A DNA stretch of 64,000 nucleotides from Planotetraspora sp. A-T 1434 (lineage in GTDB: Bacteria > Actinomycetota > Actinomycetes > Streptosporangiales > Streptosporangiaceae): NCBI RefSeq assembly GCF_025420585.1, contig NZ_JAOEGB010000020.1:1-64000 (forward strand), read 5' to 3'. Every line of letters starts with the position of its first letter. The first letter of the stretch is position 1. Shown here in pieces: positions 1-13,768 of this stretch. The notes under the pieces were generated by a model, which was not told the DNA's origin, searched no databases, and saw only the letters and a program-made list of their open reading frames with translations. The position numbers and the translations under genes were made by a program.

Positions 1-1446
1 TTCCGTCACCTGACAGTCCAGCCACACCTGCGGCGTCTGGGACATGGTCCAGCCGGGGGTGCCGAAGCAGGCGCACACGTCGGGGCCGAACAGCTCGCCC
101 AGGCTCAGCGCGCTGGTGAAGACCACGGGCGCGGCTACGGCTCCGCGCGCGCGGGCCATCTGGCGGAGCACTTCGACGCCCGAGTACGTGCTGTGCGCGA
201 CGTCGGCCGCGAACCGGCGCTGGATCGCGGTGGCGCGGGCCGCGAAGCTCTCCTCGCCCGACATGTCGGCGTCCAGCAGGAGCAGGCTCGTGAAGTCGCC
301 GACGAGGCTCTGCACGTCCGGGTGAAGCGGACGCCGGTCGTAGAGCGGCAGGTTGAGCACGAACCGGTCGGTGGCGCTCCAGGCGGCGAGCGCTTCGGCG
401 AACGCGGTGAGGAACACCATCGACAGCGTCACGCCGTGATCTCGGGCACGCGCGGCGAGCCTGTCCCACCGCTCGGCCGGCACCGTGACGTACCGGCGGG
501 TGATCCGCTGGTCGGCCAGCCGCTCGGGCGCGACGGCGGTCGGCAGCTCCGGGCCGCCCGGAAGCTCGGCCAGCCGCCCGGCCCAGTAGTCACGCGCCCG
601 CTCATAGTCGGCCCGGGTGCTCGCGGCGTACGCGGCGAGGTAGCGCGGGTAGCTGTAGTCGATGGCCGGCAGGTCCTCTCCGGGACACCGGTAGAGGGCG
701 GCCAGGTCGCCGAGCAGGGTGCGGAAGCTCTGCGCGTCGGCGGCCAGCATCTCGATCTGGACGTGGACACGGGTGGCCCCGCGGGGCAGCAGGCTCAGCG
801 AGACGTCGAGCACCTGGCCGCGCCCGACGTCGAGCTTGCGGTGCGACAACTCCGCGCGGATCCGCTCAAGCTCCCCGTCGAGGTCGGCGACGGCCGTCAG
901 GTCCCGTACGGTGAGACCCGGCCAGGTGCTCTCCGCCATGATCTGCTGGCTGCCGTCGGGCAGAAACCGGCAGCGCAGCATCGGGTGCCGCGCCACCAGC
1001 CGCCGCACCGCCGCGTCCAGCCGCTCGGGCGACACATCGTGACCGTCGAACTCGTTGTAGAAGTGGGCGCCGACGCCACCGAGGACCTGGCCGTCGGTCC
1101 GCCCCACCCAGTACGCGTGCTGCATGGTGGCCAGCGCGAACGGCGCCGTCTCGTCGATCTCGGGGGCGGGCTCGGCCACCGGCTCCCGGGCGTCGTCTTC
1201 ATGGGCGCCGTCTTCATGGGCGCCGCCCGACTTGAGGATCAGCTCCCACCACTGCGCCAGCGTGCGGTGCTCGATCAGGTCGGCGAAGGTCACGCCCGAC
1301 CCGGCCTTGCCCCACCGCGCGGCCAGCCTCATCAGCCCGATGGAGTCGAGCCCGAGCCCGAGCAGGTCGTCGTGGTCCCCGATGCGCTCCACCGGCTCAC
1401 CAAGGCGTTCGGCGATGTCGCCGCGCATCCCGTCGATACTGAGCAT
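1..1446 (-). CDS. NRPS, N-terminal carrier domain plus heterocyclisation (Cy) domain, partial
   Basis: The gene runs off the left edge; 482 residues are visible. Residues 1-75 form a carrier domain with the phosphopantetheine site GLDSI (Ser35). The following LMRLAARWGK resembles aryl carrier proteins such as those of mycobactin or bacillibactin systems. A linker carrying the duplicated pentapeptide GAHED leads to a Cy domain: ATMQHAYWVGR (about 107-116), the GGVGAHFYNEFDG region, and SQTPQVWLD near the visible end. Cy domains condense and cyclise Cys, Ser or Thr to thiazoline or oxazoline. The family motif DxxxxDxxS is here ExxxxDxxS (Glu232, Asp237, Ser240). ATG 1446 lies 8 bases after the stop of the diiron gene, so the two are an operon. 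Adenylation and later domains must lie outside the window. Confidence 0.88.
   Translation of the reverse strand, partial: MLSIDGMRGDIAERLGEPVERIGDHDDLLGLGLDSIGLMRLAARWGKAGSGVTFADLIEHRTLAQWWELILKSGGAHEDGAHEDDAREPVAEPAPEIDETAPFALATMQHAYWVGRTDGQVLGGVGAHFYNEFDGHDVSPERLDAAVRRLVARHPMLRCRFLPDGSQQIMAESTWPGLTVRDLTAVADLDGELERIRAELSHRKLDVGRGQVLDVSLSLLPRGATRVHVQIEMLAADAQSFRTLLGDLAALYRCPGEDLPAIDYSYPRYLAAYAASTRADYERARDYWAGRLAELPGGPELPTAVAPERLADQRITRRYVTVPAERWDRLAARARDHGVTLSMVFLTAFAEALAAWSATDRFVLNLPLYDRRPLHPDVQSLVGDFTSLLLLDADMSGEESFAARATAIQRRFAADVAHSTYSGVEVLRQMARARGAVAAPVVFTSALSLGELFGPDVCACFGTPGWTMSQTPQVWLDCQVTE
1195..1224. repeat. Tandem 15-bp duplication in the NRPS linker
   Basis: The unit GTCTTCATGGGCGCC occurs twice without a gap. 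Being a multiple of three, it duplicates GAHED in the carrier-Cy linker and keeps the frame. It looks like a recent slippage event in a tolerant linker. Confidence 0.9.
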
Positions 1447-1454
1447 GTGCCGCC

Positions 1455-2426
1455 CTATCTGCGGTAGCCGGGGCGCAGCGCCCGATCGGCGAACCCGATG
1501 AGTTCAAGCTTCTCCAGGCCGCCCCGCACGCGAGGGGTGAGCAGCCCGATGTTGTTGAGTGCCGAGATGACCTTGGAGAAGACCGCCTGGCGGTACTTGA
1601 CCATCAGATCGTCGTGGGCGGCGAACTCGACGCCCTCGGCGCGGTCGACCTCGATGCGCTCCCACACGTCCTCGAGCAGGAACCGGCGCCGCATGAGCAC
1701 CGCGGCCTCCAGGACCATGTCCTCGCGGTCGGCCAGCTCGGCCGTGGTCATCTCCCGGTAGATCCCGGACAGCGACATGACGCCGAACGTCACGTGCCTG
1801 GCCTCGTCGCGGGCGACGAGCCGGGTGATGTCGCAGATCAGATCGTCGTGGAACGTGCTGTGCGCCAGCCGGAACGCGGCCATGGCCAGCGCCTCGACGA
1901 TGATCTGCATGCCCAGCGCGGTGATGTCCCAGCGCGAGTCGGACAGCAGGTCCTCCAGCAGCTCGCGCAGCGGCTGCGTGATCGGGTACGGCTCTGGCAC
2001 CTTCTCGTTCAGGTAACGGGAGAACGCCTCCACGTGCCTGGCCTCGTCGGCGGCCTGGCTGGCCGCGTAGTACTTGCTGTCCAGGTCGGGCACGACCTCG
2101 ACCAGCCGGGCCGCGACGACGAGCGCGCCCTGCTCGCCGTGCAGGAACTGGCTGACCATCCACGACTGGAGTTCCCAGCGGAAGGTGTCCCACATGGGCC
2201 GGCCGCGCCGCGCCAGCGGGGACGACGCGAAGGAGGCCATCGCGAACGACGAGTCGTCGGGCAGCGGGCACCCGAACGGCACGTCGATGCTCCAGTCCAC
2301 ATCGGTCGTCGCGTTCCACTGCGCCTGCTTGGCCCGCTCGTACAGCGACAGCACCGTAGGGGACTCTGACTCGTATTTCCAGGTTAGCCACGCCTGAACC
2401 GGGGTGGTCACCGACAAGCCGGACAT
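1455..2426 (-). CDS. Ferritin-like diiron oxidase/oxygenase
   Basis: A 323-residue soluble helical protein with two identically spaced iron-binding motifs, E-x29-E-x2-H: Glu98 with Glu128/His131 and Glu178 with Glu208/His211, both reading DEARH. This is the signature of the ribonucleotide reductase R2/ferritin-like superfamily, whose members in biosynthetic clusters include N-oxygenases (AurF, CmlI) and fatty-acid-type lyases. The substrate cannot be assigned; a tethered amine or acyl chain is an inference from the NRPS context. ATG 2426 was preferred over an upstream in-frame ATG at 2507 because the intervening translation is AT-rich promoter DNA. No strong ribosome site is seen; TTATCT lies 8 bases upstream, so a leaderless transcript is possible. 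It is followed at 8 bases by the NRPS gene. Confidence 0.8.
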   Translation of the reverse strand: MSGLSVTTPVQAWLTWKYESESPTVLSLYERAKQAQWNATTDVDWSIDVPFGCPLPDDSSFAMASFASSPLARRGRPMWDTFRWELQSWMVSQFLHGEQGALVVAARLVEVVPDLDSKYYAASQAADEARHVEAFSRYLNEKVPEPYPITQPLRELLEDLLSDSRWDITALGMQIIVEALAMAAFRLAHSTFHDDLICDITRLVARDEARHVTFGVMSLSGIYREMTTAELADREDMVLEAAVLMRRRFLLEDVWERIEVDRAEGVEFAAHDDLMVKYRQAVFSKVISALNNIGLLTPRVRGGLEKLELIGFADRALRPGYRR

Positions 2427-2470
2427 GAAGCCCAGATAACCAGACCCGCGAGCCGGACACCAGACTTTCC

Positions 2471-2491
2471 ATCTTGTTTCTTGTATGTTGT
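2471..2491 (+). promoter_or_regulatory. Heptad direct repeats, divergent promoter (diiron/NRPS and C-domain genes)
   Basis: Three contiguous 7-mers, ATCTTGT, TTCTTGT and ATGTTGT, lie in an AT-rich island between divergent genes. A possible -10 (TACAGT, 2496-2501) follows four bases later and sits just before ATG 2506. Related contiguous repeats occur in the other promoter regions of this cluster. Confidence 0.6.
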
Positions 2492-2505
2492 TTGCTACAG
2501 TCACC

Positions 2506-3768
2506 ATGGTGATCGAGGTACCGGCGTCGATCGGCCAGCGGCTGCTCGCGATGATCGGCCACTACCGCGCCGGGCACGGCGCGTTGAACTGCCCATTGCT
2601 GTGCCGGCTGCGCGGCCCGCTGGAGATCGCGGCGCTCCAGGCCGCGCTGGACGGCCTGACCGAGGCCCACGAGTCGCTGCGCACCACGTTCACCGGCCGG
2701 GGTCCGGCGCTGAGGCAGGTCGTCCACCCGCCCCGGCCGCTACCGCTGACCGTGGTCGACTCATGTGACGACGCCGCGGTCAACGCCGAGCTCTCGCGGC
2801 CCATCGACGTGGCGTCGTGGCCCGCGCGGGCCACCCTGTGGCGGGCCGGGCCGGCCGACCACACGCTCTGCCTGAACCTGCACCACCTGGTCACCGACGC
2901 ATGGTCCACGGGGATCCTGTTCGCCGAGCTCCGCCTTCGCTACGCCAGGGCGCTCGGGCGGCCCGCGAACCTGACCGCGCCCTCGTGGCAGTACCGCGAC
3001 TTCGCCGAGTGGCAGCGCGACCTGTGCGACGGGCCCGATTTGGACCGGCATCGCGACTACTGGCGGGACCGCCTGTCCGGGCTGCGGGTCCCCCGGCTCC
3101 CCTATCGCGAGCCGCCGCCCGGCGCGACGCCCGGCATGGTCACGGCCGATCTGCCCTCGTACGTCGTGGACGGCCTGCGCGAGATCGCCCGCGACTGCGG
3201 GACCACGCTGTTCACCGTGGCGCTGGCCCTCTACTACGCGGTCCTCCGGCAGGCGTGCGGGCAGGACGACCTGCCGGTCGCCTCGCTGTTCGCCAACCGC
3301 GCCCGGCCCGAGTCCCGGGGCACCGTGGGCTTCCTGGCGAACATGGTGGTGCTGCGGACCCGGCTCGACGAGAGCATGAGATTCCCCGATCTGGTGCGTG
3401 CCACGCACGCGACGGTCGCGGGAGCCCTCGCCTACCAGGAGCATCCGTACCAGACCCTCCCCCTGGAGGCGACGACGAGCCCGGGCGGCGGGCGGGTCGA
3501 CGACGTGGTTTTCCAGATGATGGCCGAGCTGGACTTCACGGCGAGCGCGGCCGGGCTGGAGTTCGAGCTGCTCGTGCCGGACGGCATCGGCAGCCGCTTC
3601 GGCGTGGAGCTGGCCATCGCGCCGCGCGGCCGGGGCCTGCGCGCCGTCCTGTTCTACACGCCCCGGCTCGACGACGACACGGCCGCCCGGCTGCTGTCCG
3701 GCTACGTCTCGGCCGCGACCGCCGTGGCCCGCGACGACGGCGCGCCGGTCGCCCAGCTCGGCACCTGA
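2506..3768 (+). CDS. Free-standing NRPS condensation domain protein
   Basis: A 420-residue protein made of one condensation domain. The catalytic motif is HHLVTDAWS (His126, His127, Asp131), that is HHxxxD with the usual Gly replaced by Ala, so it should be active in amide or ester formation. Later C-domain features include the YWRDRL helix and SLFANRARPES. No carrier or adenylation domain is attached, so it must act in trans on carrier-bound or CoA-bound partners. ATG 2506 was chosen over in-frame ATG 2485 because the latter lies in the repeat-containing promoter. The gene lacks a ribosome site and may be leaderless. Its 3' end overlaps the convergent plsX-like gene by 67 bases. Confidence 0.85.
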   Translation: MVIEVPASIGQRLLAMIGHYRAGHGALNCPLLCRLRGPLEIAALQAALDGLTEAHESLRTTFTGRGPALRQVVHPPRPLPLTVVDSCDDAAVNAELSRPIDVASWPARATLWRAGPADHTLCLNLHHLVTDAWSTGILFAELRLRYARALGRPANLTAPSWQYRDFAEWQRDLCDGPDLDRHRDYWRDRLSGLRVPRLPYREPPPGATPGMVTADLPSYVVDGLREIARDCGTTLFTVALALYYAVLRQACGQDDLPVASLFANRARPESRGTVGFLANMVVLRTRLDESMRFPDLVRATHATVAGALAYQEHPYQTLPLEATTSPGGGRVDDVVFQMMAELDFTASAAGLEFELLVPDGIGSRFGVELAIAPRGRGLRAVLFYTPRLDDDTAARLLSGYVSAATAVARDDGAPVAQLGT

Positions 3769-4718
3769 CCCGCCACGTTTAGCTCCACGCAGGTCGCCGC
3801 GACCTGGATCGCCCCGGCCACGTCGGCCCCGTTCGCCGCGCCGTGCGCCACGACGCACACCCCCCGCACGCCGAGCAGCACGGCGCCCGGCTCGGCGGCC
3901 AGCTGGGCCCGGATCGCCGACGACACGGCCGATGTCACCGGTTTCGCCGCGTCGCCGAGCGTGGCCCTGATGGCGGCCAGCGCCACTTCGGCTGTCGCGT
4001 CCAGGGTCCGCTCGTAGGTCTTGAGCGTGATGTCCCCGGTGAGTCCCTCGCACACGACCACGTCCACTCGCCCGGTGAACAGCTCGTACGCCTCGACATG
4101 GCCGACATATCGCCCGACGCGCTCGGGCAGCGCGGCGATCAGCACATCCGCCGACCGCTGCACGGGACCGCCCTTCACGGTCTCCTCCCCGTTGGACAGC
4201 AGTCCGATCCTGGGCCGGTCCACGCCCAGGCGCAGCCGCGCGTACGCGGCGCCCAGCTCGGCGAACTGGACCAGCCAGCTGGCCGGGCACTCCGTGGCCG
4301 CGCCCACGTCGAGCAGCACGGTCGGGGACGCGCCCGGGGCGGGCAGCAGCGTGGCCAGCGCCGGGTTCAGCACGCCGGGCGCGCGACGCATCCGCACGGC
4401 GGCGGCGAGCACGGCCGCGCCCGTGTTGCCCGTCGTCACCATTCCGTCGGCGAACCCACCGGCGACCGCGCCCGCGGCAACCATCAGCGACGAGCGCCGT
4501 TTGGCCCTTGTGACGGCGATCGGGTCGTCGTCCATCGCCACTCGCTCGGGCGCGTCCAGGATCGCGAACCTGCCCCCCGCCGCCCGGGAGAGCTCGTCAC
4601 GCGACCCCACCAGCACGATCTCGTAGCGGTCGGCCAGGCGCAGCGCGCCCTCCACGACCGGTCCTGGGCCGAGGTCGCCACCCACGGCGTCCACGGCGAG
4701 CCGAATTCTCCGCCGCAT
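3702..4718 (-). CDS. PlsX-like phosphate acyltransferase
   Basis: A 338-residue PlsX-family protein of normal length. It begins MRRRIRLAVDAVGGDLGPGP (family: MRIALDAMGGDxGP) and keeps LLDVGAATECPASWLVQF, IGLLSNGEETVKG and VVCEGLTGDITLKTYE. PlsX makes acyl-phosphate from acyl-ACP. The canonical GAN-x-DC segment reads GAATEC, so specificity may differ. Because it sits among biosynthetic genes rather than with fabH/acpP, it is more likely a pathway enzyme (activating or transferring an acyl chain) than the housekeeping copy; that is inference. ATG 4718 has AGAGGG 9 bases upstream. It is divergent from the VOC gene and shares its regulatory repeats. Confidence 0.82.
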   Translation of the reverse strand: MRRRIRLAVDAVGGDLGPGPVVEGALRLADRYEIVLVGSRDELSRAAGGRFAILDAPERVAMDDDPIAVTRAKRRSSLMVAAGAVAGGFADGMVTTGNTGAAVLAAAVRMRRAPGVLNPALATLLPAPGASPTVLLDVGAATECPASWLVQFAELGAAYARLRLGVDRPRIGLLSNGEETVKGGPVQRSADVLIAALPERVGRYVGHVEAYELFTGRVDVVVCEGLTGDITLKTYERTLDATAEVALAAIRATLGDAAKPVTSAVSSAIRAQLAAEPGAVLLGVRGVCVVAHGAANGADVAGAIQVAATCVELNVAGQVPSWATGAPSSRATAVAAET

Positions 4719-4753
4719 TGTCCGCGACCCTCTCACCCGGCAAACACTAAGCT

Positions 4754-4774
4754 ATCTCGTATCTGATGTCTGCT
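4754..4774 (+). promoter_or_regulatory. Heptad direct repeats between plsX-like and VOC genes
   Basis: Three contiguous 7-mers ATCTCGT, ATCTGAT and GTCTGCT lie between the divergent starts at 4718 and 4798. They match the ATCTnnT pattern seen at 2471 and 10119. The GGAGGAG ribosome site of the VOC gene follows. Confidence 0.6.
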
Positions 4775-4797
4775 GGCTCCGACGATGGAGGAGACAC

Positions 4798-5205
4798 ATG
4801 AGCGGCTCACCTGCACCCACGATCATCCCGACCCTTCGCTACCGGGACGTCGACAAGGCCATCGACTGGCTGACCGGCGCGCTCGGTTTCGCCGCCGTGT
4901 TCGTCGCCCGCGACGATTCGGGCCAGATCGGCCATGCCCAGCTCAGCCACGGCACCGGCATGATCATGCTCGGTCCGCACTCCGACGGCGGCGACGACCG
5001 TCTGTCGGTGGACATGGGCCCCGCCGCCGTGTACGTCATCCTCGGCTCCGACGAGATCGGCGCGCACTACGAGCGAGCCGTCGCGGCGGGCGCCGAAGTG
5101 GTCCGCGAACTCCGCGACGAGTCCTACGGCGGCAGCGGCTACACCGTCCGCGATCCGGAGCTCAACGTGTGGAGCTTCGGCACCTATCACCCGGCGATGG
5201 GCTGA
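4798..5205 (+). CDS. VOC-superfamily (glyoxalase/bleomycin-resistance-like) protein
   Basis: A 135-residue vicinal-oxygen-chelate fold protein: PTLRYRDVDKAIDWLTGALGF at the start, the central HAQLSHGTGMIMLG strand, and YTVRDPELNVWSFGTY at the end. VOC proteins in antibiotic clusters act as drug-binding self-resistance proteins or as metal-dependent isomerases, lyases or dioxygenases; sequence alone does not decide. It is preceded by a strong GGAGGAG site and is the first gene of a rightward operon; the GMC gene starts 3 bases after its stop. Cytoplasmic, with no signal peptide. Confidence 0.82.
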   Translation: MSGSPAPTIIPTLRYRDVDKAIDWLTGALGFAAVFVARDDSGQIGHAQLSHGTGMIMLGPHSDGGDDRLSVDMGPAAVYVILGSDEIGAHYERAVAAGAEVVRELRDESYGGSGYTVRDPELNVWSFGTYHPAMG

Positions 5206-5208
5206 CCC

Positions 5209-6726
5209 GTGACCGGCTACGACGTCATCGTCGTCGGGGCGGGCACGGCCGGCTCGGTGCTCGCGGCCCGGCTGAGCGAGGACCCCGCACGACACGTGTT
5301 GCTGCTGGAGGCGGGGCCCGACTTCGCCGGTGCGGCGAGCCTGCCGCCGGCCCTGCGCGAGGAGTTCCAGGTGCTCGACCCGCGCTACGACTGGGGGCTG
5401 GACGCCGCCCTCGTCGGGGAGCGGCGCGGCATCGTGGCGCGCGGCCGGGTGGTCGGCGGGTCGTCGCAGACCAACGCGCGCGGCGCGATCCGGCCCCCGG
5501 CGTCCGACTTCGCCGCGTGGGCCGCGCTCGGCCTGCCCGTGTGGGGCTGGGACCGGGTGCTGGAGTCCTTCCGGGCGATAGAGACCGACGCAGAGTTCGG
5601 GCACGAGCCGTACCACGGGTCGGGGGGGCCGCTGCCGATCACGCGCTGGGCCGCGTCAGAGCTGGCGCCGGGCGCGGCGGCGCTCCTCGCGGCGGCACGG
5701 GCCTGCGGACATGCCGACCTCGCCGACCTGAACGCCCCCGACGCGGCCGGAGTGGGAATCTACCCGCAGAACCGGGCGGGCAGGTCGCGGGTCTCGTCGG
5801 CCACCGCGTTCGTCGACCCCGCCAGGTCGCGCCCCAACTTGACGGTGCGCGGCGACTGCGAGGTGAACCGGGTCGTCGTCGCCGACGGCCGGGCGACCGG
5901 GGTCGAGGTGGACGGCGAGTTCATCGCGGGCCGCGAGGTCGTGCTGTGCGCGGGCGTGCCGTACAGCCCGGCGCTGCTGCTGCGGTCCGGGATCGGCCCG
6001 GCCGGGGAGCTGAGGGCCCTCGGCATCGACGTGGTGCTCGACGCGCCGGGCGTCGGGCGCCGCGTCATCGACCAGCCCGGAGCCGCGATCCCGGTGGTGC
6101 CGGCCGCGAGCGCGGGCGCGGACTGGTGGGAGACCAACCAGGTCGCCGGGCGCGACCGGATCCCCGGATACGAGGATGGGTCACTGTATCTGGTGTTCTT
6201 CTCGGGGATCGACATCCCGCCGCTGGCCGCGATGATCGGCAGCGACCTGCTGAGCATGGTCAGCGTCGGCGACCTCGCGCCGGCCTCGCGCGGCCGGATC
6301 ACGCTGCGCGGCCCGGATCCGAAGGACCAGCCGCTCGTCGAGCTCAACTTCTACTCGGCCGAGGGCGATCTGGCCCGGATGCGGGCGGCGCTGCGGCACG
6401 CGTGGGAGATGGCCAACCGGGCCGAGTTCACCGCGTACGTCGACCGGTTCGGCCTGGTCGACGACGCGACGATGGCCGACGACGAGCGGATCGACGGGCT
6501 GCTCACGCACACGACGACCAGCCGCTGGTCGCTGCAGGGGGGCTGCGCGATGGGCCCGGACACCGACCCCGAGGCAGTGGTGGACGAGCGGCTGCGGGTG
6601 CGCGGCGTGGAGGGCCTGCGGGTCGCCGACGCTTCGGTCGTCCCCGTGCCGTTGCGCGCCCCGACCGCGCTGGCCTGCGCGATGATCGGCGAGCACGCGA
6701 GCCGGATAGTACTATCTGCTATTTGA
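5209..6726 (+). CDS. GMC-family FAD-dependent oxidoreductase with altered active site
   Basis: A 505-residue GMC protein. The FAD-binding motif VIVVGAGTAGSVLAARLSE opens the protein, followed by LLLEAGP, GRVVGGSSQTNARGAI and the C-terminal GLRVADASVVP segment. In typical members the active site carries His in HPxGTCRMG and a second His/Asn near the end. Here the first segment reads SLQGGCAMG (about residue 441), and PLRAPTAL replaces the usual SANTNxP, so both catalytic residues seem lost. It may bind FAD yet perform different chemistry. GTG 5209 is coupled to the VOC gene. It belongs to the cluster by operon structure. Confidence 0.83.
   Translation: MTGYDVIVVGAGTAGSVLAARLSEDPARHVLLLEAGPDFAGAASLPPALREEFQVLDPRYDWGLDAALVGERRGIVARGRVVGGSSQTNARGAIRPPASDFAAWAALGLPVWGWDRVLESFRAIETDAEFGHEPYHGSGGPLPITRWAASELAPGAAALLAAARACGHADLADLNAPDAAGVGIYPQNRAGRSRVSSATAFVDPARSRPNLTVRGDCEVNRVVVADGRATGVEVDGEFIAGREVVLCAGVPYSPALLLRSGIGPAGELRALGIDVVLDAPGVGRRVIDQPGAAIPVVPAASAGADWWETNQVAGRDRIPGYEDGSLYLVFFSGIDIPPLAAMIGSDLLSMVSVGDLAPASRGRITLRGPDPKDQPLVELNFYSAEGDLARMRAALRHAWEMANRAEFTAYVDRFGLVDDATMADDERIDGLLTHTTTSRWSLQGGCAMGPDTDPEAVVDERLRVRGVEGLRVADASVVPVPLRAPTALACAMIGEHASRIVLSAI
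6712..6725 (+). promoter_or_regulatory. Heptad repeat pair before the exporter genes
   Basis: CTATCTG followed directly by CTATTTG (6 of 7 identical) spans the last codons and stop of the GMC gene, 42 bases before the exporter ATPase start. A 12-bp palindrome GATAGTACTATC (6705-6716) overlaps its left end. It fits the cluster-wide 7-bp repeat pattern, but with only two clear units. Confidence 0.4.
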
Positions 6727-6766
6727 CTCTAGTATTTGCGCGACAAATCCACATATCGTGACTGCC

Positions 6767-7705
6767 ATGGAAGGGATATCGGTCAACGTCGAGAGTCTGC
6801 GGAAGCGGTACGGCGAGGTCGACGCCGTCGCGGGAGTCTCGTTCCAGGTGGCCGCGGGCCACGTCGTCGCCGTCCTCGGCCCCAACGGGGCCGGGAAGAC
6901 CACCACCATCGGATGTCTCACGACCCTGATCCGCCCCGACGGGGGCCGCGCCACGGTCATGGGACACGACGTCGTCGCCGAGGCCCCTGCCGTACGAGGA
7001 CAGATCGCGGTCGTCGGGCAGTCGGCGGCCGTCGACGAGCTGCTGACCGGCCGGGAGAACCTGGTCTTCTTCGGCCGGTTGCTCGGCGAGCCGGCGGCCC
7101 AGGCGAGGAAACGCGCCGACGAACTGGTCGAGCGGTTCGACCTGGGCGAGGTCGCCGGCAAACCGGCGGGCACCTATTCCGGCGGCACCCGCCGCCGCCT
7201 CGACCTGGCGGTCGGCCTGGTCGTGCGGCGTCCCGTGCTGTTCCTCGACGAGCCGACGACGGGCCTCGACCCGCGCAGCCGCCAGGAGTTGCACGCCCTG
7301 ATCCGCGAGCAGCGCGACCTCGGCGTGAGCGTCCTGCTCACCACGCAGCAACTGGACGAGGCCGACGCTCTGGCCGACCGGGTGGTCGTCATCGACCACG
7401 GCCGGGTCATCGCCGAAGGCACCCCGGACACGCTGAAGGCCCAGGTCGGCGGCTCGTTCTGTGTCGTCATGATCGCCGACGAGGGGGTCCGCGCCCAGGC
7501 GCTCGCGGCGCTGCGCCCGAGCCTGCCGGACGCGGGCGTCGCCGACGACGCGATCCTCGTCCCCGCCAAGGGCACCTGGACCCTGACCGAGGTCGTCCGC
7601 ATCCTGGACGCCGCCGGCATCGAGCCCGACGACATCGCCCTGCGCCGCCCCACCCTGGACGACGCCTTCTTCGCCCTGACCGCCGACGCCGGAGGCGCGC
7701 GATGA
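6767..7705 (+). CDS. DrrA-like ABC exporter ATP-binding protein
   Basis: A 312-residue nucleotide-binding subunit with Walker A GPNGAGKTTT, signature YSGGTRRRLDLA, Walker B VLFLDEPTTGLD and the C-terminal extension typical of DrrA-like drug-export ATPases. ATG 6767 gives the usual N-terminus; a GTG at 6758 is an alternative. CATATC lies about 10 bases upstream and there is no ribosome site, again hinting at a near-leaderless transcript. It overlaps the first permease gene by 4 bases. It most likely energises export of the cluster product. Confidence 0.92.
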   Translation: MEGISVNVESLRKRYGEVDAVAGVSFQVAAGHVVAVLGPNGAGKTTTIGCLTTLIRPDGGRATVMGHDVVAEAPAVRGQIAVVGQSAAVDELLTGRENLVFFGRLLGEPAAQARKRADELVERFDLGEVAGKPAGTYSGGTRRRLDLAVGLVVRRPVLFLDEPTTGLDPRSRQELHALIREQRDLGVSVLLTTQQLDEADALADRVVVIDHGRVIAEGTPDTLKAQVGGSFCVVMIADEGVRAQALAALRPSLPDAGVADDAILVPAKGTWTLTEVVRILDAAGIEPDDIALRRPTLDDAFFALTADAGGAR

Positions 7706-8472
7706 CGGCGGCGACCCCGGCCGCGGGGCTGGTGCGGGACGCGGGTGTGCTGGCGGCGCGCAACCTGCGGGTGCTCAACGTGAAGGGGCTGGTGGCGGCG
7801 GTCGTCAACCCGCTGCTGTTCTTCGTCGCGTTCTACGTGGTGCTGCACGACCTGCTGATGAGCCGCGGCGTCGACTTCGGCGCCTTCTTCCCGCCGGGGA
7901 TAGTGGTCCAGGCGATGGGGCTCGGCGCGATCGCGACCGGCCAGTTCGCGTGGCGCGACCAGCGCAGCGGGCTGTTCGACCGCTACCGGCAGATGCCGAT
8001 CCATCGGGGGGCGATCCTCGCGGGACGGCTCGCCGCCGACCTGCTCCCGGCCGCGATCTCGGTGCTGGTCGTCGTGCTGGCGGGGCTGCTGGCCGGGTTC
8101 CGGTTCGCGGGCGGGCCGCTGGGGGCGCTGGGGTTCCTGGTGCTGGCGCTCGCGTTCTGGGTGGCCCTGGCCACGGGAACGGGCGCGTTCGGGGTGGCCA
8201 TGCGGCGGGTCGACGCGGTGACCGCGATGCTGTTCGTGCCCTTCCTGCCGCTTGTCAACTTCTCGACCGCGTTCGTACCGGTGCAGGGCTTTCCCGGTTG
8301 GCTGCAGCCAGTCGTGCGGGTCTCGCCGTTCACGGCCGTCGCCGACGGGCTGCGCGCCCTCGCGGCGGGCGGTCCCTCGTACGCGCCGGTGTGGCAGGCC
8401 GTGGCCTGGATCGCCGGGCTGACCCTGCTGTTCTCCTGGTCGGCGATGGCGGCGTTCCGGAGGATGTCATGA
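7702..8472 (+). CDS. ABC-2 exporter permease (first)
   Basis: A 256-residue ABC-2 (DrrB-like) membrane subunit with about six predicted transmembrane helices, among them GLVAAVVNPLLFFVAFYVVL, a stretch of alternating hydrophobic helices at about 110-165, and a last helix near the C-terminus. The DRYRQMPIHR loop matches the FRSLPxxR coupling element of the family. ATG 7702 overlaps the ATPase stop in the ATGA arrangement, and its own end overlaps the second permease by 4 bases. Confidence 0.88.
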   Translation: MTAATPAAGLVRDAGVLAARNLRVLNVKGLVAAVVNPLLFFVAFYVVLHDLLMSRGVDFGAFFPPGIVVQAMGLGAIATGQFAWRDQRSGLFDRYRQMPIHRGAILAGRLAADLLPAAISVLVVVLAGLLAGFRFAGGPLGALGFLVLALAFWVALATGTGAFGVAMRRVDAVTAMLFVPFLPLVNFSTAFVPVQGFPGWLQPVVRVSPFTAVADGLRALAAGGPSYAPVWQAVAWIAGLTLLFSWSAMAAFRRMS

Positions 8473-9236
8473 CCTTCACGATGCAGGCCACGCTGATGGC
8501 GGGCCGGAACCTGCGCCGGTTCCTGCGCTCCCCGGCGCGCGTGCTGAGCGCGCTCGTCATGCCGCTGATCCTGATGTTCATGATGCTGGCGCTGCTCGGC
8601 GGCCTGATCGGCGACTCGGCCGGGACGTTCGGGTACATCGGCCGCCTGGCGCCGCTGATCGTTGTTTCCACGGCCACGCTGGGCGCGGGCCTGGCGTCGG
8701 TCGGGTTCTACCGCGACCTGAACGACGGCATGCTCGACCGGTTCCGCACCCTGCCGATCAGGTTCGGTTCCGTGCTGGCAGGCCGGGTGGCGGGGGATGT
8801 CTGCTCGGGGCTGCTGACGGCCGTGGTGGCCACCGCCGTCGCGTACGCCGCCGGGTTCAGGTTCACCCAGGGGACGCCGGCGGCGCTGGCGTACTTCGGG
8901 GTGTTCGCGCTGTTCGCCATGATGATGTCGTGGGTGGCGGTGCTCGTGGCGCTGGCGGCCCGCACCGACCTCGGGCCGTTGAACGCGCTGAACGGGCCGA
9001 CGCTGCTGCTGTTCTTCCTGTCGTCGGGGTTCGTGCCGGTGGAGAACTTCCCGTCGGTGGTGCGGCCGGTCGTCCGGGCCAATCCGCTGTCGGTGGCCGA
9101 CAACGCGATGATCGGCCTGTCCAGCGGCGGCCCGGTGGCCGTCCCGCTGCTGCAGACGCTGGCGTGGACGCTGGGAGTGAGCGCGCTGTGCGCCCTCCTC
9201 GCGGTACGGCGGTTCGCCGCCCGGACTACGACCTAG
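8469..9236 (+). CDS. ABC-2 exporter permease (second)
   Basis: A 255-residue DrrB-like permease with the same topology as the preceding gene and a clear FRTLPIRFGSVLAGR coupling motif. Together with the first permease and the ATPase it forms a heteromeric exporter. ATG 8469 overlaps the previous stop (ATGA). Its 3' end overlaps the convergent thioesterase gene by 11 bases, leaving no room for a terminator. Confidence 0.88.
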   Translation: MTFTMQATLMAGRNLRRFLRSPARVLSALVMPLILMFMMLALLGGLIGDSAGTFGYIGRLAPLIVVSTATLGAGLASVGFYRDLNDGMLDRFRTLPIRFGSVLAGRVAGDVCSGLLTAVVATAVAYAAGFRFTQGTPAALAYFGVFALFAMMMSWVAVLVALAARTDLGPLNALNGPTLLLFFLSSGFVPVENFPSVVRPVVRANPLSVADNAMIGLSSGGPVAVPLLQTLAWTLGVSALCALLAVRRFAARTTT

Positions 9237-10101
9237 CGTTGGTGGGCGGGGCCGACTCACCGAACTGCTCGGTCTCCACCACCCGGCACAGCATCTGCTG
9301 GGCCCCGGTCGCGATCAGGCGCCCGTCGGGCGACCACACGGCCGCCCGGCCGGCCGCCAGACCGTGCCGCACGGACATGCCGTAGCCCTCGACCAGCAGC
9401 CATTCGGCCTCGGGTGCCGCGTCGTGGAACGACACCTGCAGTTGCATGGTGGGGGCGACGAAGAACGGCACCCCGGGCGGGCAGGCGAGCAGCACCGCGG
9501 GGAACGCGGAGGTGTCGATGTGCAGCAGCGCGCGGCAGGCGTCCAGCCACAGGTCGCCGGGGAAGACCGGACGCGGGCGCAACCGCATCCAGCCGCGCAT
9601 GTTCACCTCGCCGAAGCCGCCGGGCATGCCCTCGAACCACGAAATCGGCCGGGTTTCGCAGTTGGCGAGCTGCGGGAACGACATCTGCCCCCATTCGGCG
9701 GCCCGCTCCTCGATGGTCGGCACCCGCTCGGGCTCGGGCACTTCGGGCGCCGCGGCCAGGCGCTCGTCCGGCCCGGCCAGATCGCCCGCGGCGGCCCACA
9801 CCGTCGCGTCCAGCACGGCCCGGTCGCGCTGTGTCATGCTGACGCGCAGTGCCTCGGTCCGCCGGCTGGACCGCAGCCGGGTCACCTCGATGCCGACCTC
9901 CTCGAACCGCGCGACGTTGAGGAAGTCGCAGCTGATGCTCGCCGGCCGGGCCATGCCCGAGGCTCGGCCCGCCGCGCGGAGCGCGACCGAAGCGAGGTAG
10001 CCCCCGATGGGCCCCCAAACGTTCCAGTCCTCCGAAAGCACAGCGCGGAAGCGCAGGTCATCGAGCTGCTCGACGTCCGTGTCCAGCCCAAGATCCGCCA
10101 T
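9226..10101 (-). CDS. Acyl-CoA thioesterase-like double-hotdog protein
   Basis: A 291-residue protein of the TesB/4HBT_3 type with two hotdog repeats. The first holds WGPIGGYLASVALRAAGRA and the second VAPTMQLQVSFHD with VRHGLAAGRAAVWSPDGRLIATGAQQML, both characteristic of acyl-CoA thioesterases. In this cluster it may hydrolyse an acyl-CoA or acyl-carrier intermediate or edit the line; this is inferred from position. ATG 10101 is preferred because GGAGGG lies 7 bases before it; an in-frame ATG at 10116 (5 residues longer) is possible. It is divergent from the LanB-like gene. Confidence 0.8.
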   Translation of the reverse strand: MADLGLDTDVEQLDDLRFRAVLSEDWNVWGPIGGYLASVALRAAGRASGMARPASISCDFLNVARFEEVGIEVTRLRSSRRTEALRVSMTQRDRAVLDATVWAAAGDLAGPDERLAAAPEVPEPERVPTIEERAAEWGQMSFPQLANCETRPISWFEGMPGGFGEVNMRGWMRLRPRPVFPGDLWLDACRALLHIDTSAFPAVLLACPPGVPFFVAPTMQLQVSFHDAAPEAEWLLVEGYGMSVRHGLAAGRAAVWSPDGRLIATGAQQMLCRVVETEQFGESAPPTNARS

Positions 10102-10118
10102 CGCCGAGCCCTCCATTG

Positions 10119-10139
10119 ATCTTGTATCTGTTATCTAGT
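10119..10139 (+). promoter_or_regulatory. Heptad direct repeats between thioesterase and LanB-like genes
   Basis: ATCTTGT, ATCTGTT and ATCTAGT follow each other without gaps. This is the clearest copy of the cluster motif. It sits about 18 bases upstream of the thioesterase start and about 50 bases upstream of the LanB-like start, so one site could control both directions. Confidence 0.65.
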
Positions 10140-10155
10140 TAAAGATAGAACAATC

Positions 10156-10184
10156 TAGACAACGACGGAACGGCTACCTAGATT
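10156..10184 (+). promoter_or_regulatory. Putative promoter of the LanB-like gene, leaderless
   Basis: TAGACA (10156-10161), a 17-base spacer and TAGATT (10179-10184) match the vegetative consensus at most positions. The -10 box ends 6 bases before ATG 10191, which lacks a ribosome site, so the transcript probably starts at or next to the A of the start codon. Confidence 0.6.
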
Positions 10185-10190
10185 GACGGC

Positions 10191-12530
10191 ATGTACGGTG
10201 ATACTGGAGCATCCTCCGGAAAGCTGATCTCCCTCCCTCAAAACTTCGGGTTATGGTCCCAGGGGGTCCTGCGCAGCGCCGGATTCCCGATCGGGCAGTT
10301 GCTGCGCCTGTCCGATGACGCATATGTCACTGCGGTCGGCGAACTGCTCGACGCGGAGGAACAGGGTCGCGACACCGGAGCGGCCCGGGCCCGGCTGGCC
10401 GAAGTGGCCCGGGCCGCCGGAGAGCGCCAGAACGAGCGGCTGGCCGCGGTCGCCCGCCGCGCCGACGTCCTGGAGGCCATCGCCTGGCAGAACCCGGACG
10501 TGGTCGAGTCCATGATCGTGCCGTTGGGTGAGACGGGCCGCGACACCCCTCGTAACCAGCGCCTGCGCAAGCGGCAGCGGCTGCTGGCGAAGTACTGGAC
10601 GCGCTACTGCGCCAAGAACGAGACGATCGGCTTCTTCGGCCCGAGTGTCTGGTTCGCTCTGCGAGACGAGGGCGAGCCGCTGCGGCTCAAACCGGGCCCG
10701 GCCGTGACGGGCTCGCGCAGCGTGTTCCTCGAACCATGGGCGGTCGACACGCTCGCCCAGGTCATGGGCCGTGACCCGGAGATCCGGCCGTGGGTCGCGC
10801 CCCGCCCGCACCACGCCTGCCACCTCGCCGGCGACGGCGTCACGCTGCTCACCCTGGGCGGCCCGGTCACGCTGGAGCCGCTCGAGGCGAAGGTCTTCGC
10901 GCTCCTCGACCACACGCGGAGCGCTCGCGAGGTGGCCGCCGCCCTGCCGTACGAAGAGGAAGAGGTCTTCGCCGCCCTTGAGGGGCTGGTGAGCAGGCAG
11001 CTCGCCTTCTGGGACCTGGAATGCTCGCTGCGTCAGCGCGCCGAGGTGGACCTGCGTGAGCGGCTCGGCCGGATCGGCGACCCGCGGGTCCGCGCGGCGG
11101 CGCTCGGCAGGCTCGACCGGATAGAGGCCGCGGTGAGCGCGGTCGCCGAGTGCCGCGAGCCGGCCACGCTGGTGACCCGGATGCAGGAGCTGGAGACCGT
11201 TTTCACCGAGCTGACCGGCGTCGACCCCAGCCGCCGCCCCGGCCAGGCGTACGGCGGACGGCGGCTGCTTTACCTGGAGGCGACCCGCGACGTCGAGGTG
11301 TCATTCGGCCCGCAGGTGCTGGAAGCGGTGGCCGAGCCGCTGGGACTGCTGCTGACCGGGTTCCGCTGGTTCGCCGAAGAGGCCGCGCGCGCCCTGCGCG
11401 CCACCTTGTCGGACGCCTTCGACGCCTTGACGACCGCTTCGGGAACCGCGGAAGGCGCGGACGTCGGCTTCAACGAGCTGGTCTTCTCGGTCGCTGACCA
11501 GGTGTTCATCCCCGGCAACCGGCCGCTGGACCGGCTGATGGCCGAGTTCACCCGACGCTGGCGCGACCTGCTCGGCATGGACACAGACGCCCCCGAGATC
11601 GCGCACACCAGCGAGGCGCTCGGGCCGCTGGTCCGCGCGGCGTTCCCCGCGTCTGCGCCGAGCTGGACCTGGGGCCGGATCCACAGCGTCGACCTCCATC
11701 TGGCCGCGACCGACCCGGAGGCGTTCGCGCGCGGCGAGTTCTACGCGATCCTCGGCGAGGCGCACTCGACCTACAGCCCGATCGAGTGCGGCGCGATGTC
11801 GTGGTCGCATCCCGACCCGGTCGAGCGGCGGCGCATGTTCGACACGATCATCCCGCGCGGGCGGGTGATGCTCAGCCCGGTCAAGGACTTCCCCAAGGTG
11901 GTCGCGAGAGCATACGCCGGGCAGGGACCCGACGACTGGTGGCTGTGCGTGTCGCAGTTCCCCGCGCCCGACACCGACCGGCTGCTGCCACTGTGCGGCC
12001 TGCGCGTACGGCGGGTCGCCGACGGCCGGCTCGAAGCGGGCGTGCCCGGGTCGGAGCGCTGGTTCGACGTGGCCGAGATCTGCGGCATGTGGACGGTCAA
12101 CGAGATCGTCGACCTGCTCAAGCTGGTTGTCCGCGGGCACGAGCGGACGCCCCGGGTCACCATCGACGGCCTCGTGCTGTTCCGCGCGTCGCGCTCATTC
12201 CCGGTCACGGATCTGGAGTGGACGCGCGGGGCGGGCGACCAGGAACTGTTCGTGGCCGCGCACCGCTGGCTGCGCCGTACCGGCCTGCCCAGGGTCCTGT
12301 TCGCGGCCATCAGCACCGAGCCCAAGCCGGTGTTCGCGGACTTCGGCAGCGAGGTGCAGGTGGCCAACCTGGCGCAGCTTGTGCGGGCCGCTGCCGAGAC
12401 GCCGGGGGCCACCGTCACCTTCAGCGAGATGTCGCCCGCCCCCGGCGAGACCTGGCTGGCCGACGCCGAGGGCGAGCTGTACACCAGTGAGCTACGGCTG
12501 CAGTTCGTCGATCAGCTCGGCACGACCTGA
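10191..12530 (+). CDS. LanB/PEARL-like protein (lantibiotic dehydratase N-terminal family)
   Basis: A 779-residue protein of the lantibiotic-dehydratase N-terminal family. The hallmark is KYWTRYCAKNETIGFFGP at about 135-150. C-terminal family blocks include AHSTYSPIECGA, FPVTDLEWTRGAGDQELFVAAHRW and FSEMSPAPGETWLADAEG. Class I LanB enzymes glutamylate Ser/Thr from Glu-tRNA and then eliminate; small members without the separate elimination domain (PEARLs) add an amino acid from aminoacyl-tRNA to a carrier peptide. The length and lack of a recognisable SpaB_C domain favour the second type. No LanC and no evident precursor peptide is nearby, so here it may use aminoacyl-tRNA on an NRPS-tethered or small-molecule substrate; that is inference. 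It overlaps the convergent P450 by 19 bases. Confidence 0.82.
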   Translation: MYGDTGASSGKLISLPQNFGLWSQGVLRSAGFPIGQLLRLSDDAYVTAVGELLDAEEQGRDTGAARARLAEVARAAGERQNERLAAVARRADVLEAIAWQNPDVVESMIVPLGETGRDTPRNQRLRKRQRLLAKYWTRYCAKNETIGFFGPSVWFALRDEGEPLRLKPGPAVTGSRSVFLEPWAVDTLAQVMGRDPEIRPWVAPRPHHACHLAGDGVTLLTLGGPVTLEPLEAKVFALLDHTRSAREVAAALPYEEEEVFAALEGLVSRQLAFWDLECSLRQRAEVDLRERLGRIGDPRVRAAALGRLDRIEAAVSAVAECREPATLVTRMQELETVFTELTGVDPSRRPGQAYGGRRLLYLEATRDVEVSFGPQVLEAVAEPLGLLLTGFRWFAEEAARALRATLSDAFDALTTASGTAEGADVGFNELVFSVADQVFIPGNRPLDRLMAEFTRRWRDLLGMDTDAPEIAHTSEALGPLVRAAFPASAPSWTWGRIHSVDLHLAATDPEAFARGEFYAILGEAHSTYSPIECGAMSWSHPDPVERRRMFDTIIPRGRVMLSPVKDFPKVVARAYAGQGPDDWWLCVSQFPAPDTDRLLPLCGLRVRRVADGRLEAGVPGSERWFDVAEICGMWTVNEIVDLLKLVVRGHERTPRVTIDGLVLFRASRSFPVTDLEWTRGAGDQELFVAAHRWLRRTGLPRVLFAAISTEPKPVFADFGSEVQVANLAQLVRAAAETPGATVTFSEMSPAPGETWLADAEGELYTSELRLQFVDQLGTT

Positions 12531-13768
12531 AGCGGCAGCGTGCTGAACCCCCGGAACATCCCGCTCGCCTTGTAGTCGAAGTCCTGCGAGGCGAGCTGGA
12601 TGTCGGCGAACGTGTCGAGCAGCGCACCGAACGCCAGCGTCCCCTCCAGCCTGGCCAGTTGCACGCCGAGGCAGTGGTGGGCGCCCCACGCGAACGACAG
12701 CGGCGGCTCGGCGGGCTGCGCGCCCGCGTAGCGGGTCAGGTCGAGCTTGTCGGGGTCCTTGAACTTGACCGGGTCGCGGTTGGCCGCGCCGATCACCACG
12801 ACGATCTGCTCCCCCGCCGAGACCACGGTGCCGTCGGTGAGCGTGGTGTCCTGAATGACGCTACGGCCGGTGATCTGGATCGGCGAGTCGAACCGCAGGA
12901 ACTCCTCGACCGCCGGGCCCAGCAGCGACCGGTCGGCCCGCAGCCGGGCCATCTCCTCGGGGTTCTGGCACAGCGCCGACGTGCCGAGGCTGATCAGGTC
13001 GGTCATCGTGTGGAATCCGGCGCTGAACAGCAGCACGACCACCGAGACGAGCTCCTCGACGCTGAGCCGGTCGCCGTCGATCTCGACCGTGGAAAGGCCC
13101 GAGATCAGGTCGTCCTCCGGATCCTTGCGCCGCTGTTCGAGCAGCTCGGTGAAGTACTCCTCCATCTCGGTCATGGCCGCGTCCGCCTCGCGCAGCATGT
13201 CGAGGTCGTGGATGTAGACCGTGTCGACGGCCGTGCTGGCCCGCTTGGTCAGCTCGCGCAGCCGCGCCCACTCCTCCTCCGGCACCCCGACCAGCTCGCC
13301 GATGACCGCGATCGGCAACGGATGCGCGAACGCCTTGACCAGGTCGACCTCACCGCCACCGGCCGGGACGCTCTCGCGCATGGGGTCGATGAGCTTGGCC
13401 ACCTGGGCCTCCAACTTCGGCCGCAGCTTCTCCACCCGGCGCGGTGTGAAGGCGCTGCTGATCAGCCCGCGCAGCCGCGTGTGCTCCGGCCCGTCGAGGA
13501 ACAGGAGGGTCCTGATCCGCTCGTCTCCGCGCTCCTTGCCCAACTTCGGCCGTACGCCTGACTTGTCGAACGCCGGGCTCTTCATCGACAACCGGCAGTC
13601 GTCGTACGTGGTCAGCACCCAGCCCGACCCCTGCCCGGGGATCTCCAGCCGATAGTGCGGATCGGCCGCCCGGAGCGCGTGATAGTGCGGGTACGGGTCC
13701 CGCACCGTCTCCGGGGTCTTCATCATGAGCTCCATCAGGAGCGTTTCGGCACCCGTCGGTACGGACAT
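12512..13768 (-). CDS. Cytochrome P450
   Basis: A 418-residue bacterial class I P450. The haem-ligand loop is FAWGAHHCLGVQLARLE, the K-helix ExxR is in EEFLRFDSP, and the conserved C-helix region holds LDGPEHTRLRGLISSAFTP. The I-helix motif reads AGFHTM where AG-x-(D/E)-T-T is usual, so the acidic residue of the proton-relay pair is His here. It likely hydroxylates or couples a pathway intermediate and needs external ferredoxin partners, none of which is visible. ATG 13768 has GGAGG at 4 bases. It converges on the LanB-like gene and carries a cluster-type repeat upstream, marking it as the right border of the cluster. Confidence 0.92.
   Translation of the reverse strand: MSVPTGAETLLMELMMKTPETVRDPYPHYHALRAADPHYRLEIPGQGSGWVLTTYDDCRLSMKSPAFDKSGVRPKLGKERGDERIRTLLFLDGPEHTRLRGLISSAFTPRRVEKLRPKLEAQVAKLIDPMRESVPAGGGEVDLVKAFAHPLPIAVIGELVGVPEEEWARLRELTKRASTAVDTVYIHDLDMLREADAAMTEMEEYFTELLEQRRKDPEDDLISGLSTVEIDGDRLSVEELVSVVVLLFSAGFHTMTDLISLGTSALCQNPEEMARLRADRSLLGPAVEEFLRFDSPIQITGRSVIQDTTLTDGTVVSAGEQIVVVIGAANRDPVKFKDPDKLDLTRYAGAQPAEPPLSFAWGAHHCLGVQLARLEGTLAFGALLDTFADIQLASQDFDYKASGMFRGFSTLPLQVVPS

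Follow-up and report, generated by a model that had tools for sequence, protein, structure and literature searches.

A predicted aryl-thiazoline NRPS gene cluster of Planotetraspora sp. A-T 1434 with a PEARL-like LanB protein as candidate amidating enzyme

The window, i.e., the whole stretch of DNA analysed, comprises the first 64 kb (64,000 nt) of a contig of Planotetraspora sp. A-T 1434 (C51:1-64000). Its left end (positions 1-13768) carries 12 close-packed genes, separated by intergenic gaps of no more than 79 bp:

1..1446, minus strand: N-terminus of an NRPS (NRPS1), aryl-carrier-like T and Cy domains (PF00550, 44 bits; PF00668, 99 bits), cut by the contig start
1455..2426, minus strand: ferritin-like diiron protein (AurF, 28 bits, slightly below the cut-off of 29.6)
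2506..3768, plus strand: free-standing condensation (C) domain (173 bits; catalytic motif HHLVTDA)
3702..4736, minus strand: PlsX-like phosphate acyltransferase paralogue (PF02504, 237 bits)
4798..5205, plus strand: VOC/glyoxalase-fold protein (family match), missed in the original prediction
5209..6726, plus strand: GMC flavoprotein oxidoreductase (family match)
6758..7705, plus strand: ABC exporter ATPase, DrrA type (alternative start possible at 6767)
7702..8472, plus strand: ABC exporter permease
8469..9236, plus strand: ABC exporter permease
9226..10116, minus strand: double-hotdog acyl-thioesterase (4HBT_3 and 4HBT_3C)
10191..12530, plus strand: LanB/PEARL-like protein, 779 aa (Lant_dehydr_N, PF04738, 69.3 bits; cut-off 28)
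12512..13768, minus strand: cytochrome P450, 79% identical to that of Sphaerimonospora mesophila

Every gene of the set named in the original prediction is present here with a strong family match. The 'carrier-Cy NRPS' does begin with a T-Cy pair, but the contig start truncates the protein, and no more than its N-terminus lies in the window. The diiron protein retains the invariant residues E125, E155/H158, E205 and E235/H238 (numbered on a 350 aa ORF reaching position 2507), and is 78-84% identical to its counterparts in orthologous clusters. A relative of it (46-50% identity) lies between FAAL and ACP genes at L133:12512-15555 (G265:C23:17511-20554), a locus with no thiazoline genes, and this arrangement suggests that the diiron protein acts with FAAL/ACP. 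The free C domain is found in all three relative clusters. The PlsX-like protein is divergent (222.5 with TIGR00182, whose cut-off is 243.4), and two more PlsX copies occur elsewhere in the genome. As regards a possible metal-chelating (siderophore) function, transport is represented by an exporter of the DrrAB type, and genes for uptake were not noticed.

The left flank, which the original prediction had proposed to retrieve, was recovered with the NRPSs of a relative, Microtetraspora malaysiensis, as queries against the genome. It makes up the right-hand end of another contig of this assembly, C48, where three features are found:

C48:168392-168733: C-terminal T (carrier) domain of NRPS1
C48:163521-168395: NRPS2, a Cy-A-MT-T protein with TubC docking domain and a TE-like C-terminus
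C48:161381-162526: thiazolinyl imide reductase, Irp3/PchG-like (TIGR01761, 369.9 bits; cut-off 188.8)

The ends of C48 and C51 have no 15-mers in common; the evidence for the junction is the order of the domains, together with relatives in which the region is contiguous. The order NRPS2-NRPS1-diiron-C is unbroken in genome G231, and the assembly of S. mesophila is broken within the same NRPS gene (C34/C50). NRPS1 of G231 has two Cy-A-T modules; the NRPS1 here may have one or two.

The T domain of NRPS1 carries the aryl-carrier-like motif LGLDSIGLM. In its Cy domain, the first Asp of the DxxxxD motif is replaced by Glu (EMLAAD), and by Ser in M. malaysiensis; the motif of NRPS2 is canonical. 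The A domain of NRPS2 has the code DLYNLSLIW (read by hand from the printed motifs), which is the known Cys signature. The serine of the GxSxG motif is missing from the TE-like end of NRPS2 in this cluster and in those of S. mesophila and G231. The motif reads GCGAG here and GYGSG and GSGAA in relatives, and this degeneracy is also seen in clusters without a LanB gene. As this domain has no canonical nucleophile, formation of a free acid would need another thioesterase.

C48 also carries an EntE/PchD-like aryl-AMP ligase, which scores 581.6 bits with TIGR02275. This is under the equivalog cut-off of 723.55, and the aryl acid may therefore not be 2,3-DHB. Other genes on C48 specify a FAAL with its ACP, three O-methyltransferases, a NodU-type carbamoyltransferase, xanthine-dehydrogenase-like subunits, a type II thioesterase and more P450s. 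No salicylate synthase was apparent when the gene lists were inspected by eye. The region C48:125823-141303 (L094, L095) carries KS-like, thiolase, CoA-transferase, SDR and dehydratase genes, many of them conserved beside the aryl-AMP ligase in genome G013, and these may make the aryl acid. Another NRPS region lies on the same contig as the window but beyond it, at C51:71044-80200.

Because the flank adds the Cys-specific Cy-A-MT-T protein, the imide reductase and the aryl-AMP ligase, the genes of C48 and C51 are together classed, on sequence, as a predicted aryl-poly-thiazoline NRPS cluster of the pyochelin/thiazostatin type. The gene set had been described as a cluster of unrecognised type when only the C51 side was in view; the thiazoline genes on C48 rule this out. 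A search of the open-access literature on products of M. malaysiensis or S. mesophila found no matching cluster.

PF04738 is the sole domain match of the 779 aa protein, and the elimination domain (PF14028, Lant_dehydr_C) is absent from it. PF14028 had no match genome-wide either, a weak result as the search control also gave none. The AlphaFold2 model (pLDDT 90.6, pTM 0.90; input alignment of 18 sequences) is closest among PDB structures to TbtB (6ec7/6ec8; Z 21.7 over 657 residues), with MadB, MibB, NisB and GodF as further matches and ATP-grasp glutathione synthetases as weaker ones (Z ~6). Sequence-based PDB searches with the single protein or its C-terminal part returned no meaningful match, and TbtB was reached only with an alignment profile. 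Residues ~202-275 of the protein match RRE domains, so that an RRE-like winged helix is retained; RREs are the precursor-peptide-binding modules of RiPP enzymes.

Published work on BhaB-Trp assigns the binding of ATP, Mg or the tRNA CCA end, by demonstration or prediction, to 11 residues: R34, Y205, R208, Y426, R429, D558, E575, R715, F755, E813 and R815 (PMC11962472, PMC12945691). Their counterparts here, paired by hand from their order and near-equal spacing, are R28, Y135, R138, Y354, R357, D501, E523, R665, F704, E767 and R769. PEARL copies from the control loci described below keep all of these well except E523, which varies; the comparison, that of the ExR motif included, was made among PEARLs. 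By sequence and modelled fold, the protein is a predicted PEARL-like enzyme, an identity that had been proposed earlier and is now backed by residues and structure within an NRPS cluster.

The gene set had also been noted to have no LanC, no separate elimination domain and no recognisable precursor, and none of these was found in the cluster; LanC-like genes occur on other contigs only. A class I lanthipeptide cluster can be rejected, as the elimination domain, LanC and LanA are all missing from it. A scan for the scaffold peptide motif found none in the window, in the C48 stretches or in the M. malaysiensis loci searched, and the same scan recovered scaffold peptides ending in KIAPLALA in two control loci. 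With gaps of no more than 79 bp, the cluster is also too tightly packed to hold a separate precursor gene. The control loci (L180:1855-2136 and L181:2463-2642) are probable ribosomal pearlin clusters from two genomes of the same family, with several PEARL copies each.

In a sample of 299 genomes of the family, 78 have a match to the LanB-like protein, and the full-length relatives inspected lie mostly in NRPS-PKS clusters. Relatives were not returned when genome contigs were scanned with the single protein (0), and numbered 16 in an alignment-based scan; a plasmid search yielded only distant ones (29-37% identical). The genome itself holds a further LanB-like gene, coding for 745 aa, which belongs to an NRPS-PKS cluster at C35:84436-122511 (L057, L060, L061). 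Three tandem LanB-like genes are found between thioesterase and NRPS genes at L046:4828-11686, and pairs in L047 and L108.

The LanB-like proteins of the window, M. malaysiensis and S. mesophila form one clade (support 100/99), and all three come from genomes carrying the thiazoline cluster. In M. malaysiensis, the LanB gene lies directly before NRPS2 and its product is 54% identical, i.e., as conserved as the core; this relative keeps LanB and C, while the PlsX-like and diiron proteins were unmatched in the stretches first searched. The closest orthologous cluster, that of S. mesophila (53-84% identical), has no LanB in place. The single LanB-like gene of that species is unlinked to the cluster and its product only 41% identical; it is isolated among housekeeping genes, near ruvC/ruvA/ruvB (L040:17510-19822). 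In G231 the cluster is present, C, diiron and PlsX genes included, and the genome gave no LanB-like match. Thiazolinyl imide reductases are present in 45 of the 299 genomes, and among those inspected only the one belonging to the window's cluster is accompanied by a LanB-like gene, the others having theirs on different contigs or far off.

The original prediction named conserved co-occurrence of LanB, C and PlsX as evidence for it, and homologous clusters without the LanB-like gene as evidence against it. Such clusters exist in S. mesophila and G231, which keep C and PlsX with no adjacent LanB, and in M. malaysiensis LanB and C are retained but PlsX was missing from the stretches first searched around them. 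Because of this distribution, the LanB-like protein is predicted to be an accessory amidating enzyme and not a partner of PlsX, and a coupling of the two is rejected. The absence of LanB from the S. mesophila cluster and from the G231 genome also implies that such products can be completed without it.

The reading preferred here, at a probability of roughly 0.55, is that this is an aryl-poly-thiazoline NRPS cluster whose PEARL-type LanB-like ligase amidates a free carboxylate of the product; known PEARLs act on free carboxylates. An aryl acid would be activated by the EntE/PchD-like ligase and loaded onto the N-terminal carrier of NRPS1. The Cys-specific Cy modules would then add thiazolines, of which one would be methylated and one is probably the substrate of the Irp3/PchG-like reductase. 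The FAAL/ACP, diiron, free C, PlsX-like, P450, O-methyltransferase and carbamoyltransferase proteins may modify the product or contribute an acyl moiety. With ATP, the LanB-like ligase would form an acyl phosphate on the free carboxylate of the aryl-thiazoline product, which would be captured by the amino group of an aminoacyl-tRNA; hydrolysis of the tRNA ester would leave the molecule longer by one amide-linked amino acid. This prediction of activity, substrate, amino acid and timing draws on the gene content, relatedness, residues and fold described above. Counting against it are the relatives that make do without LanB, the degenerate TE of NRPS2 and the failure of the SnaE rationale to carry over (see below).

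The ligase might instead build a side unit, for example an amide on the acyl part supplied by FAAL/ACP, and not extend the aryl-thiazoline acid. FAAL and ACP do accompany LanB in both LanB-bearing clusters, but a FAAL is also found in the S. mesophila and G025 clusters, where no LanB is in place, and this reading is considered unlikely. It is distinctly improbable that the protein stands outside the thiazoline pathway and serves a ribosomal scaffold peptide encoded in trans, as in pearlin pathways. The retained RRE-like domain would suit such a role, as would the orthologous clusters without LanB and the lone S. mesophila gene of the same clade; against it, the scaffold motif that the scan detects in the controls is absent from the window, C48 and the M. 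malaysiensis loci, the gene abuts NRPS2 in M. malaysiensis, and 3/3 clade members are from genomes with the thiazoline cluster.

Enzymes of the PlsX type convert carrier-bound acyl groups into acyl phosphates, and an acyl phosphate is the PEARL intermediate. As both genes occur in the cluster and NRPS2 ends in a degenerate TE (GCGAG), the LanB-like protein could be thought to act on a carrier-bound intermediate, passing the amino acid of an aminoacyl-tRNA to a thioester or to a PlsX-made acyl phosphate. This is highly improbable given that PlsX, C and diiron genes persist without an adjacent LanB in S. mesophila and G231, that LanB of M. malaysiensis has no PlsX nearby, that the degenerate TE recurs in LanB-free clusters, and that the ATP-site residues of the LanB-like protein are kept, making outside activation unneeded. 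Least probable of all is release of the aryl-thiazoline chain from its carrier by aminoacyl-tRNA aminolysis, directly or via an acyl phosphate, with the LanB-like protein replacing that same TE.

Amidation of a free carboxylate by the LanB-like ligase, the reading preferred above, has a precedent. The pairing of an NRPS with a LanB-like protein, taken for an unrecognised cluster type in the original prediction, is already a published class, with ~2000 such NRPS/PKS clusters reported (Yu and van der Donk 2024, PMC11212132). In the threopeptin pathway (sna) of Stackebrandtia nassauensis, SnaE is required for the addition of Thr to a nonribosomal carboxylate, which is left by a ureido-forming C domain and is inert after chain reversal (PMC11212132). 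Like SnaE, which was compared by its published description, the protein here is a stand-alone LanB-like enzyme beside NRPS genes, with no elimination domain or precursor, and the amidation of a nonribosomal carboxylate proposed for SnaE, dependent on ATP and aminoacyl-tRNA, is the one proposed here. The sna cluster differs in having an A-T-C-A-T NRPS and a PKS, with a ureido C domain of motif EHHxxHDG, where the present cluster has Cy modules, a thiazolinyl imide reductase and a free C domain that reads NLHHLVTDA. As the NRPS condensation domains here are of the Cy type and EHHxxHDG does not occur in the cluster, ureido chain reversal is ruled out and the SnaE rationale does not apply. Nor does the motif occur in those C domains that neighbour LanB-like genes in related NRPS-PKS loci, so that chain reversal is not the general reason for LanB-like enzymes.

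Among the ~2000 annotated clusters, SnaE is the only NRPS-associated PEARL-like enzyme functionally placed in the literature found. PEARLs with NRPS assembly lines are thus known, while a PEARL in a thiazoline-type cluster was not found described in the open-access literature. Natural relatives with and without the LanB-like gene form a clean system for a role beyond ureido chain reversal, and the cluster would represent a route to aryl-thiazoline metabolites bearing a tRNA-derived amino acid.

PEARLs are peptide aminoacyl-tRNA ligases of the LanB_C type. Those that use a ribosomal scaffold (TglB, AmmB and BhaB) share with the LanB-like protein the tRNA-CCA and ATP-site residues and the presence of a glutamylation domain only, and differ from it in having a scaffold peptide with a PLALA-type end, where the context here is an NRPS. 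TbtB, the closest solved fold, differs in its chemistry: it glutamylates Ser/Thr residues in a RiPP without requiring ATP, and a partner enzyme carries out elimination. Karamomycins are naphthyl-thiazoles of Nonomuraea whose cluster is only predicted (PMC12971057); they are likewise aryl-thiazol(id)ine metabolites from Streptosporangiaceae, and a link to the present cluster is only a guess. With the pyochelin/thiazostatin/yersiniabactin-type systems, the cluster shares the aryl-AMP ligase, the aryl carrier-Cy start, the Cys-specific Cy-A-MT-T protein and the Irp3/PchG-type reductase; it differs from them in its degenerate terminal TE and in its extra LanB-like, diiron, PlsX-like, FAAL/ACP, GMC, carbamoyltransferase and several P450 genes.
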